Position numbers and translations under genes: made by a program | Assembly (NCBI GenBank): GCA_013335405.1 | Contig: JAAXVR010000024.1 | Coordinates: forward strand, 1 to 43,550 | Direction: 5' to 3' | Length of the DNA: 43,550 nt | Origin: Chlorobiaceae bacterium | Lineage (GTDB): Bacteria; Bacteroidota; Chlorobiia; Chlorobiales; Chlorobiaceae | Part shown: positions 27,264 to 38,344 of the stretch, piece by piece | Position numbering within the stretch: the stretch's first letter is position 1 | Layout of the letters: each line of letters opens with the position of its first letter | Notes under the pieces: generated by a model | The model's database searches: none | What the model saw: only the letters and a program-made list of their open reading frames with translations | What the model was told of the DNA's origin: nothing

Positions 27264-29564
27264 ATGCACAGTTTAATTCAGTTATCAATAGTCGTACTGC
27301 TGCTGCCGCTGCTCTCTTTCGTCATTCTCATTTTCTTCAACCGGAAGCTGCCGAGAAGGGGAGATTTCGTGGGAGTCGGGATACTCGGCACAGCATTGGC
27401 AATATCGCTCTACATGTTCTGGACGGTTATTGTACAGACTTATGATCCGGCATTCAAACTTGCATGGGATTTCACGTGGATCGATTTCGGCAACGTGCCC
27501 GGTGTCGGCCCGCTCGAGATCCGAATGGGCATTTTCGTCGATAACCTCACGGTCATCATGCTCGCCATGGTTACCCTCATAAGCTTCCTCGTGCATCTCT
27601 ACTCGACAGGGTACATGGCCGGAGACAAGCATTACGGAAGGTTCTTCGCCTATCTCGGCATCTTCACCTTCTCGATGCTCGGCATCGTGCTTTCGGACAA
27701 CCTGTTTTCCATCTACATGTTCTGGGAGCTCGTCGGACTTTCTTCCTACCTGCTCATCGGGTTCTTTTTCGAGAAGCAGAGCGCTGCCGATGCACAGAAA
27801 AAAGCTTTCCTTGTTAACCGTGTCGGCGATATCGGCATGTGGCTCGGTATCCTTATCCTTTATTCCCAGTTCCATACGTTCGGTTACCAGCAGATATTCG
27901 ACAACCTCGCCGCGGGCAAATTCACCATGTCCAACGCCTGGCTGACTGCTGCCGGTATCCTGCTCTTCATGGGTTGCGTCGGAAAGTCCGCACAGCTGCC
28001 GCTGCACATCTGGCTTCCGGATGCGATGGAAGGCCCCACACCGGTTTCGGCGCTTATCCATGCGGCCACAATGGTTGCTGCAGGCGTCTATTTCGTTGCG
28101 CGCATCTTTGCCCTCCTCACTCCTGACGCCCTGCATGTGATCGCCTTCTGCGGCGCTCTGACGGCATTCATGGCGGCAACCATAGCCATCACACAGCATG
28201 ACATCAAGAGGGTGCTGGCATACTCGACCGTTTCACAGCTCGGCTACATGGTACTCGGCCTCGGAGTAGGTGCCTATTCGGCAGCACTTTTCCACCTGCT
28301 TACACACGCATTCTTCAAGGCATGCCTCTTCCTCGGTTCCGGCGCCATCATCCATGCCATGCACCATGAACAGGACATGCGCTGGATGGGCGGACTGCGC
28401 AAGCATATGCCATGGACCTTCGCAACGTTCACATTCGCGACGCTCGCTCTTGCCGGTCTTCCGCTCACCAGCGGTTTCATGAGCAAGGATGCAATCCTCG
28501 CAAGCGCTATCGGTTTTGCGAAAGTTGAAGGCGGGGGTATCTACTATCTCATTCCGGTTCTCGGTTTCTTCTCGGCAATGCTGACCGCATTCTATATGGG
28601 CCGCCAGATCTGGCTTGTCTTCTTCGGAGAGAGCCGCACCCATCTCAAGCCGGCTGAAGAGCATCACGGCCATGATGCACATGCCGCTCACGGCGCGCAT
28701 CACGGTCACAACGACCATGGTCACGAAGAACACCATGGCGTGCACGAGGTTGCCTGGAACATGCGGGCTCCGCTCGTCATTCTCGCATCGCTATCCGTCT
28801 TCGCGGTCTTCTCTCCTGATCCGCTCGACGGGGCAAAAGGGTGGTTCATGCATATGGTGCAGACCCCAGAAACCGTCGTGGGGCGGTATACCACGGAACA
28901 TGCATCCGCAAACCTTTCGGCACCATCTGCTCTTATGGCGGAATCAGTGCAGGCAGAACCGGCACATCATACCATGACCGATGCCGTTCCTGCCGCAAAC
29001 CCCGCACACGGAGCCACGGAAGCAGGGCACGGGGAGTCCGCAGAGGGACATACCTTCTCCGACCACAGACAGGCAGAGCTTGCCCACGAATCTCATGCTG
29101 CCCATTACACCGCGATCATCATCTCGAGTATCATGGTCGTCATCGGTATCAGCATGGCTCTTATCGTCTATGCGTTCAGGATCATCAATCCGGAAAAGAC
29201 CTCCGAAGCCATCAGGCCGCTCTACCTCTTCTCGTTCAACAAATGGTACTGGGATGAAATGTATGAAGCGACCGTCATAAGGTTTTCCATCGTGCTTTCG
29301 AAGATGCTTGCATGGTTCGACGCGAAAATCGTTGACGGCATCGTCAACGGCGTAGCCATCATGACGAGAAATTTCGCTTTCGCAAACGGAAGCTTCGACA
29401 AGTATGTCGTCGACGGCCTTGTGAACTTCACGGCGTTTTTCGTGAACACCACCGGTGCCGTGCTGCGTAAACTGCAGACCGGCAAGGTCCAGACCTATAT
29501 CGTCATGGCCCTTTTCGCGGTCCTCGGGTATTTCGTCTATTACTTAACGAAACTGATCTATTAA
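27264..29564 (+). CDS. nuoL: NADH-quinone oxidoreductase subunit L, with histidine-rich insertions
   Basis: A 766-residue proton-pumping antiporter-type subunit, about 150 residues longer than E. coli NuoL. The core is typical: FWELVGLSSYLLIGFFF with the key glutamate, KSAQLPLHIWLPDAMEGPTPVS with the key lysine, and HDIKRVLAYSTVSQLGYM. Two hydrophilic insertions are histidine-rich. The first (about 460-495) has 14 histidines in 36 residues. The second (about 545-615) is Ala/His/Glu-rich. The lateral helix and last membrane helix follow (about 660-766). NuoL is the distal pump; the insertions may bind metal or buffer protons (inference). Confidence 0.96.
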   Translation: MHSLIQLSIVVLLLPLLSFVILIFFNRKLPRRGDFVGVGILGTALAISLYMFWTVIVQTYDPAFKLAWDFTWIDFGNVPGVGPLEIRMGIFVDNLTVIMLAMVTLISFLVHLYSTGYMAGDKHYGRFFAYLGIFTFSMLGIVLSDNLFSIYMFWELVGLSSYLLIGFFFEKQSAADAQKKAFLVNRVGDIGMWLGILILYSQFHTFGYQQIFDNLAAGKFTMSNAWLTAAGILLFMGCVGKSAQLPLHIWLPDAMEGPTPVSALIHAATMVAAGVYFVARIFALLTPDALHVIAFCGALTAFMAATIAITQHDIKRVLAYSTVSQLGYMVLGLGVGAYSAALFHLLTHAFFKACLFLGSGAIIHAMHHEQDMRWMGGLRKHMPWTFATFTFATLALAGLPLTSGFMSKDAILASAIGFAKVEGGGIYYLIPVLGFFSAMLTAFYMGRQIWLVFFGESRTHLKPAEEHHGHDAHAAHGAHHGHNDHGHEEHHGVHEVAWNMRAPLVILASLSVFAVFSPDPLDGAKGWFMHMVQTPETVVGRYTTEHASANLSAPSALMAESVQAEPAHHTMTDAVPAANPAHGATEAGHGESAEGHTFSDHRQAELAHESHAAHYTAIIISSIMVVIGISMALIVYAFRIINPEKTSEAIRPLYLFSFNKWYWDEMYEATVIRFSIVLSKMLAWFDAKIVDGIVNGVAIMTRNFAFANGSFDKYVVDGLVNFTAFFVNTTGAVLRKLQTGKVQTYIVMALFAVLGYFVYYLTKLIY

Positions 29565-31280: not shown

Positions 31281-32816
31281 ATGTTCGAGCTGCCATCAGG
31301 TGCTGAAATTCAGGCTATCATCGCAAGTCTCAATGCAAGCGTCGGGTATTTCATACCCGAGATATACCTCTCCGTGCTTTTTATGCTCCTGATCGTGATC
31401 GATCTCGTCGCAAAAGGCAGGAAAAACAATCTGCTTTCCCTTACGACCCTCGCAGGTCTGGCGGGAAGTATCTTTTTCATCGTTCCCCAGCATTCGATGA
31501 AGGCAGGGGAGTTCTTTTTCGGGATGTATGTCCTTGACGAGTTCGGACTGTTCTTCAAATATTTCTTTGTGATTTCGGGAATGCTGACCGTCATCGTCAC
31601 CATGGCGGACGAGCAGTTCGACAGCGAGACGAAGAGCATGGGCGAGTACTATGCACTCGTGGTCGCCATGGTGCTCGGCATGATCATGATGGCCTCGTCG
31701 AACGACCTCCTCATGATTTTCCTTTCAATGGAGCTGGTGAGTTTCTCCGCATACATTCTCACCGGTTATTACAAAAGAAATCTCCAATCCTCCGAAGCCG
31801 CGCTGAAGTACCTTGTCTACGGGGCCGTTTCCTCAGGCCTGATGGTTTACGGATTTTCGCTCATCTACGGAATGACCGCCCAGACGAACCTCATCAAAAT
31901 CAGCGCATCGCTTGCCGCCAACGGTTATGATCCCCTGGTGATGATCCTTGCCACGCTGCTCATCATAGCAGGTTTCGGATACAAGATCGGTGCGGTGCCA
32001 TTCCATTTCTGGAGTCCCGACGTTTACGAAGGAGCACCCACACCGATCACCGCCCTGCTTTCCGTCGCATCGAAGGCGGCCGGTTTCGCGCTTCTCGTGC
32101 GCTTCTATTTCGTTTCCGTTCCTCACAGTCTCCAGCCGTATGAGGATATCGTCGGCATCGACTGGCATTCGCTCCTCATCGTCATCGCCGCGGCCTCGAT
32201 GATCTACGGCAACGTCGTTGCGCTCTGGCAGAAAAATGTAAAGCGGCTTCTCGCCTATTCATCCATCGCACATGCCGGTTATCTCCTTCTCGGGATCATC
32301 GTTATGGACAAGTTCGGAACACAGGCGACACTTTTTTACCTGCTTGCCTACTTCCTCATGAACTTCGGCGCCTTCTACATCGTCATTCTCATCGCCAACA
32401 AGACCGGCAGCGAGAACCTCGACGATTACCGCGGACTTGGAAAGAGCATGCCTCTTGCAGGCGGCGCACTGACCGTCTTCCTCATTTCGCTCGTCGGCCT
32501 TCCACCGACGGCAGGATTCATCGGAAAACTGATGATATTCGCCGCCATGCTGAACAAGGGGGATCTCTACATCGTCCTTGCTCTCATCGGTATCCTGACA
32601 AGCGTGATTTCGCTTTATTACTATATGCTTATCCCGCTCAACATGTTTCTGCGCGATTCGCCGCACTCCGAGGAACGGTCGATGGAGCTCTCCTTGCCGT
32701 CCCGCCTGATCATGATCGCTCTTATGGTCCTGACGATCTACTTCGGACTTTACTTCGCGCCGCTTTCGGATTTCGCAAAGTATTCATCGGCACTGTACGG
32801 CATGTCCTTCCAGTGA
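31281..32816 (+). CDS. nuoN: NADH-quinone oxidoreductase subunit N
   Basis: A 511-residue antiporter-type proton pump. It contains FLSMELVSFSAYILTGY (key glutamate), PFHFWSPDVYEGAPTPITA, and VKRLLAYSSIAHAGYLLLGI, all standard for the family. It is the last gene of the operon; a strong terminator follows 23 bases after the stop, before the hydrogenase genes. Confidence 0.96.
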   Translation: MFELPSGAEIQAIIASLNASVGYFIPEIYLSVLFMLLIVIDLVAKGRKNNLLSLTTLAGLAGSIFFIVPQHSMKAGEFFFGMYVLDEFGLFFKYFFVISGMLTVIVTMADEQFDSETKSMGEYYALVVAMVLGMIMMASSNDLLMIFLSMELVSFSAYILTGYYKRNLQSSEAALKYLVYGAVSSGLMVYGFSLIYGMTAQTNLIKISASLAANGYDPLVMILATLLIIAGFGYKIGAVPFHFWSPDVYEGAPTPITALLSVASKAAGFALLVRFYFVSVPHSLQPYEDIVGIDWHSLLIVIAAASMIYGNVVALWQKNVKRLLAYSSIAHAGYLLLGIIVMDKFGTQATLFYLLAYFLMNFGAFYIVILIANKTGSENLDDYRGLGKSMPLAGGALTVFLISLVGLPPTAGFIGKLMIFAAMLNKGDLYIVLALIGILTSVISLYYYMLIPLNMFLRDSPHSEERSMELSLPSRLIMIALMVLTIYFGLYFAPLSDFAKYSSALYGMSFQ

Positions 32817-32897: not shown

Positions 32898-32927
32898 TTG
32901 TTACATTGGCTGTAACTATGCTGTATT
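32898..32927 (+). promoter_or_regulatory. Candidate hup promoter with overlapping palindromic operator
   Basis: GTTACA-TTGGC-TGTAAC (32900-32916) is a perfect 6-5-6 palindrome. It overlaps TTGTTA (32898-32903), a possible -35, with CTGTAT/TGTATT as possible -10 at 17-18 bases spacing. It lies about 100 bases upstream of hupS. A dimeric regulator bound here would block or modulate RNA polymerase; the regulator is unknown. Confidence 0.4.
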
Positions 32928-33021: not shown

Positions 33022-34101
33022 ATGCAAAGCAACCAGACCTTTGCCGAACTGTTCAGGGCCAGGGGTGTAAGCAGGCGGGACTTTCTGAAGTTCTGCTCAC
33101 TTACCTCGGTCTATCTCGGCCTTTCGCCGTCGATGGTACCAAGTGTTGTACACGCCATGGAAAACAAGCCGAGAACTCCGGTACTCTGGCTTCATGGGCA
33201 GGAATGCACCTGTTGTTCAGAATCGTTCATCCGATCCTCCCACCCCACCATCGAGGACCTGCTTTTCAACATGATCTCGCTCGATTACGATGACGTCCTC
33301 AGCGCCGCAGCAGGGCACCAGCTCGAGGCCGTGCGGAAGAATATCATGAAAGAGTACAAGGGTAAATATATTCTTGCTGTCGAAGGAAACATCTCGACAA
33401 AGGATGACGGTGTTTACTGCATGGTTGGAGGTGATTCCTTCCTGAACATCATCAGGGAAACCGCCGCTGATTGCGCAGCCATCATTGCATGGGGCGCCTG
33501 TGCTTCGTTCGGTTGCGTACAGAATGCCGACCCGAACCCTTCCGGTTCGAAACCAATCCATGAAGTCATCAAGGACAAACCGATCGTCAAAGTGCCGGGA
33601 TGTCCTCCGATTTCTGAGGTCATGACCGGTGTCGTCGCCCATTTCCATACCTTCGGAACCCTTCCTGAGCTCGACCGCTTCGGACGTCCGAAAGCTTTCT
33701 ACAATACGAGAATCCACGACAAGTGCTACAGGCGAGCTTTCTTCGATGCCGGCATGTTTGTCCGGAGCTTCGACGATGATGCCACAAGGAAAGGGTGGTG
33801 CCTTTACAAAATGGGATGCAAAGGGCCGACCACCTATAATTCCTGTTCGAAAATCCAGTGGAATGGAGGCACGAGTTTCCCTATCGGTTCAGGCCATCCC
33901 TGCATCGGATGTTCCGAGCCGAATTTCTGGGACAGGGGACCGTTCTACAAGAGGCTTGCTGAAGTTCCGTTCCTCGGAAGCGACAGCAATGCCGACAGGA
34001 TCGGCATGATCGCCGTTGGCGCCGCCGCCGCCGGAGCAGCAGCACATGCTGCCGTGACAGCAGTGAAGAAGACGAAGGAAGAAAAGCACGAAAAAGAATA
34101 A
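33022..34101 (+). CDS. hupS: Uptake [NiFe] hydrogenase small subunit, six-cysteine proximal cluster
   Basis: A 359-residue Fe-S subunit. A Tat signal (SRRDFLKF, 17-24) ends near VVHA (45). The proximal-cluster cysteines are C62, C64, C65, C160, C165 and C194. With cleavage after residue 45 these become 17, 19, 20, 115, 120 and 149, exactly the six positions of O2-tolerant Hyd-1/MBH enzymes with a [4Fe-3S] cluster; standard enzymes have glycine at 19 and 120. Distal ligands are H232, C235, C260 and C266; medial [3Fe-4S] ligands are C275, C294 and C297 with P287. A small-residue hydrophobic C-terminal helix (about 327-348) would anchor it to the membrane. Confidence 0.97.
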
Positions 34102-34122: not shown

Positions 34123-35841
34123 ATGGCTAAAAAAATTGTTGTAGATCCGATTCCTCGTATCGAGGGTCACCTCAGGATCGAAGCGAAACTGAACGACAGC
34201 AACGTCATAGAAGATGCATTCAGCAGCGGCACCATGTGGCGCGGTATCGAACTCATTCTCAGGGGACGCGATCCGAGGGATGCATGGGCATTTGCCGAAC
34301 GTATCTGCGGTGTCTGCACGACGGTGCATGCCCTCGCTTCGGTCAGGTGCGTCGAGGACGCCCTCGGCATCACCATTCCGACAAACGCGCGCATCATCCG
34401 GAATCTCATGAACGCGACGCAGCAGACACAGGATCACCTGGTGCATTTCTACCATCTGCATGCGCTCGACTGGGTTGACGTGGTCAGCGCCCTGAAAGCA
34501 GATCCGCAGCTTGCATCGGCTATTGCGCAGAGCATATCCAACTGGCCGAAATCTTCCGTAGGCTATTTCAAGGATCTGCAGAAGAAACTGATCGGTTTTG
34601 TCGACAGCGGACAGCTCGGTATCTTCACGAACGGCTACTGGGGTCATCCGGCCTACAAGCTTCCGCCGGAAGTGAACCTTATCGCGGTCGCTCATTACCT
34701 TGAAGCGCTCGATTTCCAGAAGGAGATCGTGAAAATCCAGACCATTTTCGGCGGCAAGAACCCGCACCCGAACTACCTTGTCGGCGGCATGGCCTGCGCT
34801 ATCGATCCGAACAGCGATACTGCGATCAACATCGAGCGCCTCGCGATGATCAAGAAGATTATCGACGAAACGAAAACCTTCATCGAACAGGTCTATATTC
34901 CCGATCTCATCGCCATTGCCGGATACTACAAGGGCTGGCTCTACGGCGGCGGTCTCGGAAATTACCTGACCTATGGCGATTTTCCCGAAACCTCGCTTTC
35001 TGATTTCAAGACACTGCTGTGGCCGAGAGGAGCAATCCTGAACAAGGACCTCTCCACCGTGATCGATGTCGATCCGAGGGAAGCGTCACAGATCACCGAA
35101 GAGGTAAGTCACAGCTGGTACACCTATTCGAAAGGCGACAACAAGGGTCTTCATCCGTGGCAGGGCGAAACGAAGCCGAGCTACACCGGACCGAAACCGC
35201 CTTTCGAGCACCTCGATACGGACAAGAAGTACAGCTGGCTGAAAACTCCGCGCTGGAAAAACCACCCGATGGAAGTCGGTCCCCTTGCACGCGTACTCGT
35301 GGCTTATGCGAAAGGCGATCCGATGATCAAGGAGACCGTCGGCATGGTGCTCTCGAAACTCCAGGTCGGTCCCGAAGCGCTGTTCTCGACGCTTGGCCGT
35401 ACAGCCGCGAGAGGTATCGAGTGCCTGCAGACTGCCGGCTTCATGGGTCGTTTTTACGATCAGCTTATCGCCAACATCAAGACCGGCGATTACCGTACCT
35501 TCAACAGTGAACGGTGGGAGCCTTCGACATGGCCTGCGGAGTGTAAGGGTTTCGGCTACACCGAGGCTCCCAGGGGTGCGCTCGGCCACTGGATCCATAT
35601 CGAAAAGAAATTGATCAAGGAGTACCAGATTGTCGTCCCTTCGACCTGGAATGCTTCCCCGAGGGACAGCAATGGCAATGCCGGTGCTTATGAAGCCGCT
35701 CTGAAAGGTACACCGATGCATAATCCCGAGCAACCGCTCGAGATCATCAGGACGGTGCACTCGTTCGACCCGTGCCTTGCCTGCGCATCGCACGTTTTCG
35801 ATATGAACGGCAATGAGATCACGACGGTCAAAATCGTTTAA
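34123..35841 (+). CDS. hupL: Uptake [NiFe] hydrogenase large subunit
   Basis: A 572-residue catalytic subunit that oxidises H2. The nickel ligands are in the L1 motif RICGVCTTVH (C62, C65) and the L2 motif DPCLACASH (C551, C554). Maturation by an endopeptidase would cut after H557, releasing a 15-residue C-terminal peptide. This matches hupD encoded in the same unit. Together with HupS it forms the periplasm-facing heterodimer exported by Tat. It starts 21 bases after hupS. Accessory hyp genes are not in the window. Confidence 0.97.
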   Translation: MAKKIVVDPIPRIEGHLRIEAKLNDSNVIEDAFSSGTMWRGIELILRGRDPRDAWAFAERICGVCTTVHALASVRCVEDALGITIPTNARIIRNLMNATQQTQDHLVHFYHLHALDWVDVVSALKADPQLASAIAQSISNWPKSSVGYFKDLQKKLIGFVDSGQLGIFTNGYWGHPAYKLPPEVNLIAVAHYLEALDFQKEIVKIQTIFGGKNPHPNYLVGGMACAIDPNSDTAINIERLAMIKKIIDETKTFIEQVYIPDLIAIAGYYKGWLYGGGLGNYLTYGDFPETSLSDFKTLLWPRGAILNKDLSTVIDVDPREASQITEEVSHSWYTYSKGDNKGLHPWQGETKPSYTGPKPPFEHLDTDKKYSWLKTPRWKNHPMEVGPLARVLVAYAKGDPMIKETVGMVLSKLQVGPEALFSTLGRTAARGIECLQTAGFMGRFYDQLIANIKTGDYRTFNSERWEPSTWPAECKGFGYTEAPRGALGHWIHIEKKLIKEYQIVVPSTWNASPRDSNGNAGAYEAALKGTPMHNPEQPLEIIRTVHSFDPCLACASHVFDMNGNEITTVKIV

Positions 35842-35853
35842 ACGGAGTCACTC

Positions 35854-36537
35854 ATGGGCAGATTAATCGAAGAAATCTACGTCTGGAGGCTGCCGGTCAG
35901 GTTTTACCACTGGGTAAACGCCATCTGCACGGTATTACTCCTTCTGACGGGGCTTTACATTGCCGGCCCTGTTCTGAACCCGCCTCTCGGCGAGGCGGTC
36001 TGGTACAAGGGGATGTCGTGGTGGCGCTACGTGCATTTCGCTGTGGCATTCATTTTCATCGCGAACTTTCTGTTCCGCATGTACTGGGCTCTTTTCGGCA
36101 ATGACAAATATGGCCGTTTCGGCGGATTCAGGCCCTGGTCACCTTCATGGTGGGGACAACCGTTCAGGGAGCAGGTCGAATCATACCTGTTTCTTCGTTC
36201 GGACGAACCTAACTATGTCGGCCACAACCCTGTTGCTGCACTCGCGCACTTTCTGTTCATTTTCTGCGGGTCCAGCTTCATGATTCTGACAGGACTGGCG
36301 ATGTATGGAGAGAACAATCCCGGCGGATTCACCGGGACTCTGTTCGGCTGGCTCCTGCCGTTGTTCGGAGGCAGCTACACCCTGCATTTTTCGCACCACC
36401 TCATGGCATGGATTTTCCCGCTCTACCTTGTCGTGCACCTCTACGCGGTTTTCCGCCACGATATCGTCGACCGCACGAGCGTGACCTCTTCTATCGTGAC
36501 AGGGTTCAAGCACAAGGTCGAGGAGGAGCCTGTCTGA
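35854..36537 (+). CDS. hupC: Hydrogenase cytochrome b subunit
   Basis: A 227-residue diheme cytochrome b with about four membrane helices. Candidate heme histidines are in FYHWVNA, YVHFAVAFIF, HFSHHLMAW and LVVHLYAVFRHD. It anchors HupSL and passes electrons from the distal Fe-S cluster to menaquinone. It follows hupL by 12 bases. Confidence 0.95.
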   Translation: MGRLIEEIYVWRLPVRFYHWVNAICTVLLLLTGLYIAGPVLNPPLGEAVWYKGMSWWRYVHFAVAFIFIANFLFRMYWALFGNDKYGRFGGFRPWSPSWWGQPFREQVESYLFLRSDEPNYVGHNPVAALAHFLFIFCGSSFMILTGLAMYGENNPGGFTGTLFGWLLPLFGGSYTLHFSHHLMAWIFPLYLVVHLYAVFRHDIVDRTSVTSSIVTGFKHKVEEEPV

Positions 36538-36577: not shown

Positions 36578-36622
36578 ATGCCCGTTGAAGGGATATGCAT
36601 CTCCCGCAACGGGCATTTTCTT
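36578..36622 (+). terminator. Hairpin between hupC and hupD
   Basis: ATGCCCGTTG (36578-36587) pairs perfectly with CAACGGGCAT (36607-36616), followed by TTTTCTTT. The loop can form a further GGGA/TCCC helix. It resembles a terminator or partial attenuator placed inside the hup unit. Confidence 0.65.
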
Positions 36623-36636
36623 TGTACCAGATAACC

Positions 36637-37128
36637 ATGACTGAAGTGAAGTATAACCGTATCAATGTCCTTGGGCTCGGCAACGTCCTCTACGGAGATG
36701 AAGGTTTCGGCGTGGAAGCCGTGAAAAGCTTCCAGGCGTCGGCCGATTATCCCGATATCGTCCAGTGTATCGATGGAGGCACCCAGGGAATCTACCTGCT
36801 CGACTACCTTGAGTCGTGCGATGCCCTGATTGTTTTCGATGCCCTTATCCCGCTCGAGTATGAAACAGGGGTTTATGTCTACAGGAACGATGAGCTGCCC
36901 GGATTCATCCACCGCAAGATGTCCTCACACCAGATGGGCTTCAGCGAGCTTATAGGAATCGCCAGACTGCAGGGCAGGATGCCTCTCGAGATTGCGCTTA
37001 TCGGTGTTCCTCCGCGTAATCTGGATCTCGGTATAGGGTTGAGTTCTGAAAATGCGGCACTGCTTCCCGAAGCAGTCATGAAGGCAAAGACTCTGGTCGA
37101 TGAATGGCTGAAGGCTTTTCAGTTCTGA
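36637..37128 (+). CDS. hupD: Hydrogenase maturation endopeptidase
   Basis: A 163-residue protease of the HybD/HupD family. It has the GLGNVLYGDEGFGV N-terminus with E22, D67 in IVFDALIP and H97 in MSSHQMGFSE, matching the three nickel-sensing ligands of HybD. It cleaves the C-terminal peptide of HupL after nickel insertion. The ATG at 36637 is preferred over an upstream ATG at 36595, which lies inside a hairpin. Separation from hupC by a 99-base gap with a hairpin suggests lower or separate expression. Confidence 0.95.
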   Translation: MTEVKYNRINVLGLGNVLYGDEGFGVEAVKSFQASADYPDIVQCIDGGTQGIYLLDYLESCDALIVFDALIPLEYETGVYVYRNDELPGFIHRKMSSHQMGFSELIGIARLQGRMPLEIALIGVPPRNLDLGIGLSSENAALLPEAVMKAKTLVDEWLKAFQF

Positions 37129-37257: not shown

Positions 37258-37950
37258 TCAGTGGCGGATCAGGCGAAGGAATTCGTTCCGTGTCGACTGT
37301 GATGCGATGAACTGGCCCGACATGGCAGACGTAGTGGTCACTGAATTGAGCTTTTCAACACCGCGCATCACCATGCACATGTGACGTGCCTCGATAACGA
37401 CGCCGACACCTTTCGGGTGCAGGACGTGCTCGATGGCATCCCTGATCTGTTGTGTCAGCCGTTCCTGGACCTGAAGGCGTCTTGCGAAAACTTCCACGAC
37501 CCTTGCGAGTTTCGAGAGCCCGACGATTTTACCGTCAGGTATGTATGCGACATGGGCTTTTCCGAAAAAGGGGAGCATATGGTGTTCGCACATGGAAAAA
37601 ATATCGATATCCTTGACCAGCACCATCTCGTCGTACGTTTCGGTGAATACGGCATTTTTCAGAAGTTCTTCGGGGTTCTGGCCGTAGCCGGAGGTCAGGA
37701 ACCGCAACGATCTCGCAACGCGTTCCGGTGTCTTCAGAAGCCCTTCCCTTGAAGGGTCCTCCCCGACACCTTCGAGTATCATTCCGACAGCTTCGTCGAG
37801 TTTTTGCATGATCGCGGGGCTGGTGTCCTGTCTGGTTTCGCCGCAGTCGTCGTCATCACAGCAGCTTCCGGAAGAGCAGCAGGAGATCTGATGATTATTC
37901 TCCAAGGTAGGTGACGGTGTTTTTTCCTGTTTCGTGTATTTTGACTTCAT
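37258..37950 (-). CDS. folE: GTP cyclohydrolase I
   Basis: A 230-residue enzyme (from ATG 37950) making 7,8-dihydroneopterin triphosphate from GTP. Zinc ligands are C121 and H124 in MCEHHMLPF and C192 in [20 protein letters not shown] closes the active site. An unusual N-terminal segment (24-36) is cysteine/aspartate-rich ([13 protein letters not shown]). The start is uncertain: ATG 37950 overlaps the upstream PTPS gene by 56 bases; a TTG in the overlap or an internal ATG at residue 48 are alternatives. It lies in one minus-strand unit with the PTPS homologue, with which it makes the first two steps of biopterin or queuosine-type synthesis. Confidence 0.92.
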
Positions 37951-38344
37951 AGAGAGAGAATTCGCGGTTATTGATGGTATTGAATCGTTCTTCGAGTATG
38001 TCCCAGACCAGCACGGCGAGCACTTCGGTTGTCGGTACGCACCCCGAAAGCTCCGGCACGTCATGGTTCAGGTGTTTGTGGTCAAACCTTTCGGTGATTT
38101 CCTTCTCGAGTATCGTTTTCAGCTCTTTAAGGTCGAAAAGGTAGCCGGTGACCGGATTGACGAAGCCTGAAAGCGTTATTTCGAGCTGGTAATTGTGCCC
38201 ATGCCCGTAAAGGCTGCCGCATTTGCCGTATATCCCGGCGTTATCGGTTTCGCTCAGTTCGGGATTGAAGAGGCGGTGTGCCGCATTGAATTCGATCGTC
38301 CTGGTGACGTAGATTTTTCTCGGTTTTTTCAGAAGATCGTTCAT
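37895..38344 (-). CDS. 6-pyruvoyl-tetrahydropterin synthase homologue, PTPS-II-type motif (QueD superfamily)
   Basis: A 149-residue protein. Zinc ligands are H23 in FNAAHRL and H48/H50 in GHGHNY. The catalytic C42 lies in [10 protein letters not shown], giving the CxxxxxHGH spacing of eukaryotic-type PTPS-II; bacterial QueD has CxxxHGH. It would convert dihydroneopterin triphosphate to 6-pyruvoyltetrahydropterin. Green sulfur bacteria make biopterin glycosides (limipterin, tepidopterin), and the adjacent folE supplies the substrate, so that pathway is a likely role. 6-Carboxytetrahydropterin formation for queuosine remains possible. The start at 38344 gives the usual length. Confidence 0.88.

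Follow-up and report, generated by a model that had tools for sequence, protein, structure and literature searches.

A predicted six-cysteine, group 1d-type [NiFe] uptake hydrogenase in a Chlorobiaceae bacterium and its possible link to a cbb3-type oxidase

Results

Organisation of the hup locus

The window, that is the whole stretch of 43,550 nucleotides analysed here (Chlorobiaceae bacterium, GCA_013335405.1, contig JAAXVR010000024.1), shows the gene order nuoL-nuoM-nuoN followed by hupS, hupL, hupC and hupD (Table 1). Of 74 green sulfur loci, 51 have a NuoN match upstream of hupS; the rest include truncated loci as well as some with long flanks and no NuoN. In 32/74 of these loci, many of them with short flanks, hupSLCD is followed by folE and queD. 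The folE ORF of the window (37258-38064, minus strand) carries extra N-terminal sequence that includes a Cys/Asp-rich run; a wrongly assigned start codon or a metal-binding tail may account for it. NuoL (27264-29564) contains a long His-rich stretch, HHGHDAHAAHGAHHGHNDHGHEEHHG, possibly metal-binding. Upstream of hupS, at 32900-32916, lies a perfect inverted repeat, GTTACA-N5-TGTAAC. As a conserved regulator site it was rejected, since the 78 upstream regions compared show it nowhere but in the source genome itself (L001, L002); the fetched hyp and cbb3 regions do not contain it either.

Table 1. Coordinates of the hydrogenase genes, the proximal-site codons and the oxidase cluster (window positions unless a contig is named)
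Feature	Position	Strand	Basis
nuoN, immediate upstream neighbour of hupS	31281..32816	+	profile match
hupS (hyaA/hoxK type), [NiFe] hydrogenase small subunit	33022..34101	+	translation, NCBIfam profiles, alignment, tree
hupS codons 62-65 (C-T-C-C), proximal ligands including extra Cys C64 = mature 19	33205..33216	+	sequence, alignment
hupS codons 160-165 (C-A-S-F-G-C), proximal ligands including extra Cys C165 = mature 120	33499..33516	+	sequence, alignment
hupS codon 194, sixth proximal Cys, mature 149	33601..33603	+	alignment
hupL, [NiFe] hydrogenase large subunit	34123..35841	+	alignment to HyaB, HoxG, HybC
hupC, b-type cytochrome subunit (membrane anchor, expected electron transfer to quinone)	35854..36537	+	TIGR02125 229.9 bits over 121.5
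hupD, hydrogenase maturation endopeptidase (HyaD/HybD family)	36595..37128	+	TIGR00072 120.8 over 47.45; TIGR00140 129.6, under cut-off 151.8
cbb3-type oxidase cluster	G000 contig C14, L125:2298-9512	-	profile search and CcoN structure-sequence match

The proximal site of HupS

HupS comprises 359 amino acids and is matched by TIGR00391 (513.8 bits over 179.5) and by the Tat profile TIGR01409 (25.2 over 16.7); its C-terminal region contains a hydrophobic stretch. In a phmmer search of PDB sequences, residues 46-354 aligned without a gap to residues 1-309 of HoxK of C. necator (chain S of 5mdj/3rgw; E 1.5e-139), with about 64% identity, and residues 46-353 were paired with residues 1-308 of E. 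coli HyaA. Because mature HupS aligns gap-free with HoxK, the precursor number minus 45 gives the HoxK mature numbering. The Tat signal takes up about residues 1-45 and, by homology, is presumably cleaved after residue 45.

Cysteines stand at precursor positions 25, 62, 64, 65, 133, 151, 160, 165, 194, 235, 260, 266, 275, 294 and 297, and a proline at 287. The first-pass annotation had proposed a proximal site made up of C62, C64, C65, C160, C165 and C194, with C64 and C165 at the mature positions 19 and 120 of O2-tolerant enzymes. Translation confirms the six cysteines, and a four-way alignment with HyaA, HoxK and the O2-sensitive HybO of E. coli upholds their placement and did not give the refuting outcome named in that annotation, C64 or C165 away from 19/120: at positions 17, 19, 20, 115, 120 and 149 HupS, HyaA and HoxK have Cys throughout, as compared to C/G/C/C/G/C in HybO. 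Position 76 is Glu in HupS, HyaA and HoxK, and Asp in HybO. The distal (H187, C190, C215, C221) and medial ligands (C230, C249, C252, P242; mature numbering) do coincide with those of HyaA and HoxK, as had also been claimed; since HybO has distal and medial ligands too, they do not discriminate and carry no weight for O2 tolerance.

Conservation was followed in 111 loci (L001-L111) picked by closeness to the query, the first two being the window's own and many organisms being present twice. Fifteen ligand and neighbour positions, the six cysteines included, are identical in all 111 of these close relatives among the matches listed. One scan of named genomes took the best 80 of 578 relatives, and a draw of 198 genomes from the phylum contained 56 with a HupS match at E 1e-20. 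The green sulfur set of 71 rows represents 54 distinct proteins, all of which have Cys at C64 and C165. The codons vary (TGC/TGT 33/21 at C64 and 24/30 at C165), so that a chance origin is rejected; as 163 of 282 core positions (58%) are invariant in this set, invariance alone is modest evidence. Homology is strong evidence for the predicted six-cysteine site of HupS. The nine distant contrast rows (HybO, Alteromonas, Azospirillum, five rows of the phylum from four genomes, and a regulatory-type subunit of Afipia) all have Gly at both 19 and 120. Four of them have Asn in the C65 column, for which the label 'four-Cys' is therefore loose, and six of these rows without the two extra cysteines have Glu76, which is thus no marker of six-Cys enzymes.

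The large subunit HupL

HupL carries the four active-site cysteines, and in the alignment its Glu59 and His215 correspond to E73 and H229 of HyaB. The top NCBIfam model, HyaB-type NF007550, scored 733.7 bits, under its cut-off of 1101. Position 73 is Glu in HupL, HyaB and HoxG and Gln in HybC; H229 is the His of GGKNPH, common to all four aligned large subunits. According to the available part of PMC3940037, O2-tolerant enzymes strongly conserve Glu73, sensitive ones mostly carry Gln in its place, His229 is invariant, and the Hyd-5 variants E73A and H229A each lose H2 oxidation in air. Among six-Cys enzymes, Gln73 was found in 9/9 Marinimicrobia/FCB loci, in 3/30 other loci and in two of the 74 green sulfur loci, both from one Chloroherpetonaceae genome represented twice; the remaining 72 have Glu. 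The large-subunit tree requires five E/Q changes at this position, and Chlorobiaceae may consequently have kept or regained Glu73.

HupL residue 206 (window 34738-34740), the HyaB 'KIH' position, is Gln and differs from HoxG and HyaB, which have His there. With Gln in 32, His in 41 and one unread among the 74 green sulfur loci, it was rejected as an O2-tolerance marker, a use for which we know of no basis in the literature.

Phylogeny and class of the enzyme

A tree of 60 small subunits groups all 51 six-Cys rows, HyaA and HoxK among them, in a single clade (99 bootstrap/99 SH-aLRT) and leaves out the nine that lack the extra cysteines, so that a single change between six-Cys and non-six-Cys is required; the alignment took in both extra-Cys columns, and long branches meet among distant rows, including beside this clade. 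The reference hydrogenases were compared under the group names 1d and 1c, which we take to be theirs. Green sulfur bacteria are monophyletic (99/98), the window enzyme lies inside their clade, and its first split separates Chloroherpetonaceae. Together with Marinimicrobia/FCB rows they constitute a wider group (99/90), the inner order of which is partly unsettled. These Marinimicrobia/FCB hydrogenases (L061, L068, L073-L079), at 71-76% identity, are the closest outside Chlorobiales among the fetched loci and keep the six cysteines. The eleven six-Cys rows that come from other parts of the phylum cluster apart (100/100), so that an ancient transfer may have linked the Chlorobiales line with that of Marinimicrobia. 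Within Chlorobiales, the tree fits inheritance of the six-Cys site.

Six proximal cysteines, a clade shared with HyaA and HoxK, a b-type cytochrome subunit, and E76 together with E73, both typical of group 1d without defining it, were found together. We consider it highly probable that hupSLCD encodes a membrane-bound group 1d [NiFe] uptake hydrogenase with a predicted [4Fe-3S] site; alignment and phylogeny thus agree with the first-pass annotation, which had called the enzyme six-Cys and O2-tolerant in type and had put group 1d against other groups.

Concerning known systems, C. necator HoxKGZ (group 1d; PDB 3RGW, 5MDJ) has the same subunit set and shares with HupSLC the gap-free mature small subunit, the six cysteines, E76, H187 and P242, and E73 and H229 of the large subunit; the host of HupSLC, unlike C. 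necator, is a phototroph regarded as anaerobic. E. coli hydrogenase 1 (HyaABC, group 1d; PDB 3UQY) is alike in its ligands and in the operon plan S-L-C-D. E. coli hydrogenase 2 (HybO/HybC, group 1c) has homologous subunits with the same medial and distal ligands, but differs from HupSL in Gly at 19 and 120, Asp at 76 and Gln at large-subunit position 73.

Maturation genes

The hyp genes A, B, F, C, D and E are found on contig C14 of the source genome (locus L116). Homologues of HoxO, HoxR, HoxT and HoxV were sought in the window, the hyp region and the fetched flanks; in contrast to C. necator, neither these four nor HoxQ gave a match in the window or the hyp region at E 1e-4, whereas the Halieaceae locus L111, searched likewise, contains all five. 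Unlike E. coli, the source genome has no match to the HyaE or HyaF family; HyaE gave one partial match just over the cut-off among 61 Chlorobiaceae. Accessory genes of the HyaE/HyaF/HoxR type, which are common in group 1d and do not define it, were thus not found in the source genome where sought. The HyaF/HoxQ family is missing from all 61 Chlorobiaceae and all 198 phylum genomes; its lack therefore seems characteristic of the enzymes of this phylum, and the idea that it marks an anaerobic mode of assembly peculiar to green sulfur bacteria was rejected.

A cbb3-type oxidase in the source genome

About 16 kb from the hyp genes, contig C14 also carries ccoN, ccoO, a single-haem ccoP, ccoG, two ORFs in the place of ccoH and a copper ATPase. 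CcoN matches the CcoN chain of 3mk7 over 20-478 (E 4.3e-146) and ccoO exceeds its model NF011055 (244.7 over 218); CcoN, CcoP and CcoG score under the NCBIfam cut-offs (for CcoN that of an equivalog), and the ORFs in the ccoH place have no family match. With CcoN, ccoO, ccoP and assembly genes side by side, we regard the cluster as that of a cbb3-type oxidase. The available portion of PMC10158934 describes a comparable arrangement in coral Prosthecochloris, where CcoP is short and a further CcoH-like gene is present. In E. coli the hya genes are followed by a cytochrome bd gene; here the oxidase lies on another contig than hup and is of the cbb3 type. CydA was rejected as partner oxidase, since no cydA match exists in the source genome; 31 of 61 genomes of the family have one.

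Of 86 Chlorobiaceae genomes, 71 have a ccoN match, which is clearly broken in one, and 75 have a hupS match. The six-Cys site had been presented as an oddity in a presumed strict anaerobe. The site is there; the puzzle weakens, as the source genome encodes a cbb3-type oxidase cluster, as most genomes of its family have a ccoN match, and as six-Cys organisms include anaerobes, if in smaller numbers than four-Cys organisms do (aerobe/anaerobe comparison, available text of PMC4486115).

Co-occurrence of hupS and ccoN

From the 86 genomes, 19 were dropped as under 90% complete. Eight of the remaining 67 were excluded, having no full rpoB match or being left out (G110, G193, G199, G204, G220, G228 and G229 with both genes, G201 with hupS only), which leaves 59 that are at least 90% complete and have a usable rpoB. 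Both genes are present in 45 of them, hupS only in five, ccoN only in two, and seven have neither (missing or broken). The association is marked when kinship is ignored (Fisher p 7e-5). On the rpoB tree there are six independent pairs, about three pointing the same way, none the opposite way and three showing no difference (sign test p 0.25), so that once relatedness is counted the link between hupS and ccoN across Chlorobiaceae is a lead and suggestive only.

In this count G218 (7% contamination) was retained, and the partial genes of G213 (ccoN, 171 aa) and G225 (hupS in two pieces) were scored present. Thirteen other ccoN matches contain in-frame stops in the matched stretch, with open frames of 469-674 aa next to them; these too were scored present. 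G205 and G207 are assemblies of 130 and 290 contigs, and their apparent lack of hupS could reflect gaps. In G048, of a second Chlorobiaceae genus, hupS and ccoN are both broken by stops or splits (C1:1361948-1362975 and 1691888-1694560), possibly a joint decay; it was scored as lacking both. For the epibiont Chl. chlorochromatii, the part of PMC4053972 available to us gives no uptake hydrogenase.

Discussion

Group 1d hydrogenases in Chlorobia are already published. The accessible sections of PMC8125076 report group 1d HyaB in 82% of Chlorobium mOTUs, as a monophyletic Chlorobia radiation in which H2 metabolism is ancestral. The window enzyme, alike in family and class to the HyaAB of these freshwater Chlorobia and placed in the green sulfur clade, is one more member. 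Hydrogenases of Chlorobium and Prosthecochloris were also included in the survey of PMC2974642, as its available part indicates. Neither proximal-site residues nor an oxidase are discussed in the sections of PMC8125076 on Chlorobia HyaAB that were accessible, and a literature search, mostly of titles and with thin coverage of subscription journals, found no paper treating the six-Cys site in green sulfur bacteria.

H2 would be oxidised at the periplasmic face. From the active site, electrons would run through a proximal [4Fe-3S], a medial [3Fe-4S] and a distal [4Fe-4S] cluster, reach haem b in HupC and end up in menaquinone. They may feed photosynthetic CO2 and N2 fixation, with recycling of the H2 from nitrogenase. 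HupSL might also oxidise H2 in O2: upon O2 intrusion a second electron from the proximal cluster would let the NiFe site recover rather than remain trapped. The most speculative step is that quinol electrons could reach the cbb3 oxidase through cytochrome c, so that H2 burns off traces of O2. A further reading, which we think rather improbable, is that hydrogenase and cbb3 oxidase together make up, in most Chlorobiaceae, a single path from H2 to O2 maintained by selection; it would burn H2, including nitrogenase waste, to take O2 away and give these 'strict anaerobes' a Knallgas-type protection of photosystem and nitrogenase.

Alternatively, the six-Cys site may have come from an ancestral group 1d gene and been locked in, kept for the protein pocket rather than for O2 exposure, and we find this quite plausible, if short of probable. 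The single six-Cys clade and the Chlorobiales clade with Chloroherpetonaceae as first split argue for it, as do the five of 59 genomes that retain the enzyme without a ccoN match. In the C. necator MBH, Cys120Gly alone lowers yield and anoxic activity to about a tenth, and the available part of PMC10583674 gives activities of 53% for C19G, 13% for C120G and 52% for the double variant; with Cys120Gly costly on its own, a stepwise reversion to four cysteines may be costly too. Against this, E73 varies among six-Cys enzymes, being Gln in all nine Marinimicrobia/FCB loci, yet is Glu in nearly all green sulfur loci, and the source genome has an oxidase. The six cysteines may thus have been retained either because the enzyme works at the oxic edge, aided by the cbb3 oxidase, or because losing Cys120 first would be costly.

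Conceivable, and in our view doubtful, is that the site serves H2 uptake at high potential or in one direction only, feeding the menaquinone pool while redox conditions fluctuate, and that O2 tolerance is a by-product: the partner HupC is present, and O2-tolerant enzymes need an overpotential that is lost in Hyd-5 H229A (PMC3940037, in the part available), but no sequence feature separates such a role from one in O2. The three purposes offered by the first-pass annotation (high-potential operation, survival of oxidative stress, inheritance) are likewise not told apart by the sequence. That the six cysteines hold a normal [4Fe-4S] cluster for want of chaperones of the HyaE/HyaF/HoxR kind, families indeed absent where sought, is very improbable, as HyaF/HoxQ is equally missing from a 198-genome draw in which six-Cys enzymes also occur outside Chlorobiales (of 13 strong matches there, 11 were fetched, all of them six-Cys) and the six ligands are conserved in every one of the 111 loci among the matches listed.

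Classification alone adds little beyond PMC8125076. HupSL offers a natural experiment on the purpose of the Cys6 proximal cluster, since it pairs the O2-tolerance residues considered here with a group treated as strictly anaerobic. If the enzyme is not O2-tolerant or not linked to cbb3, the cluster would be kept for other reasons. If it is both, H2-driven O2 removal would become a testable part of the ecology of green sulfur bacteria at the oxic edge.
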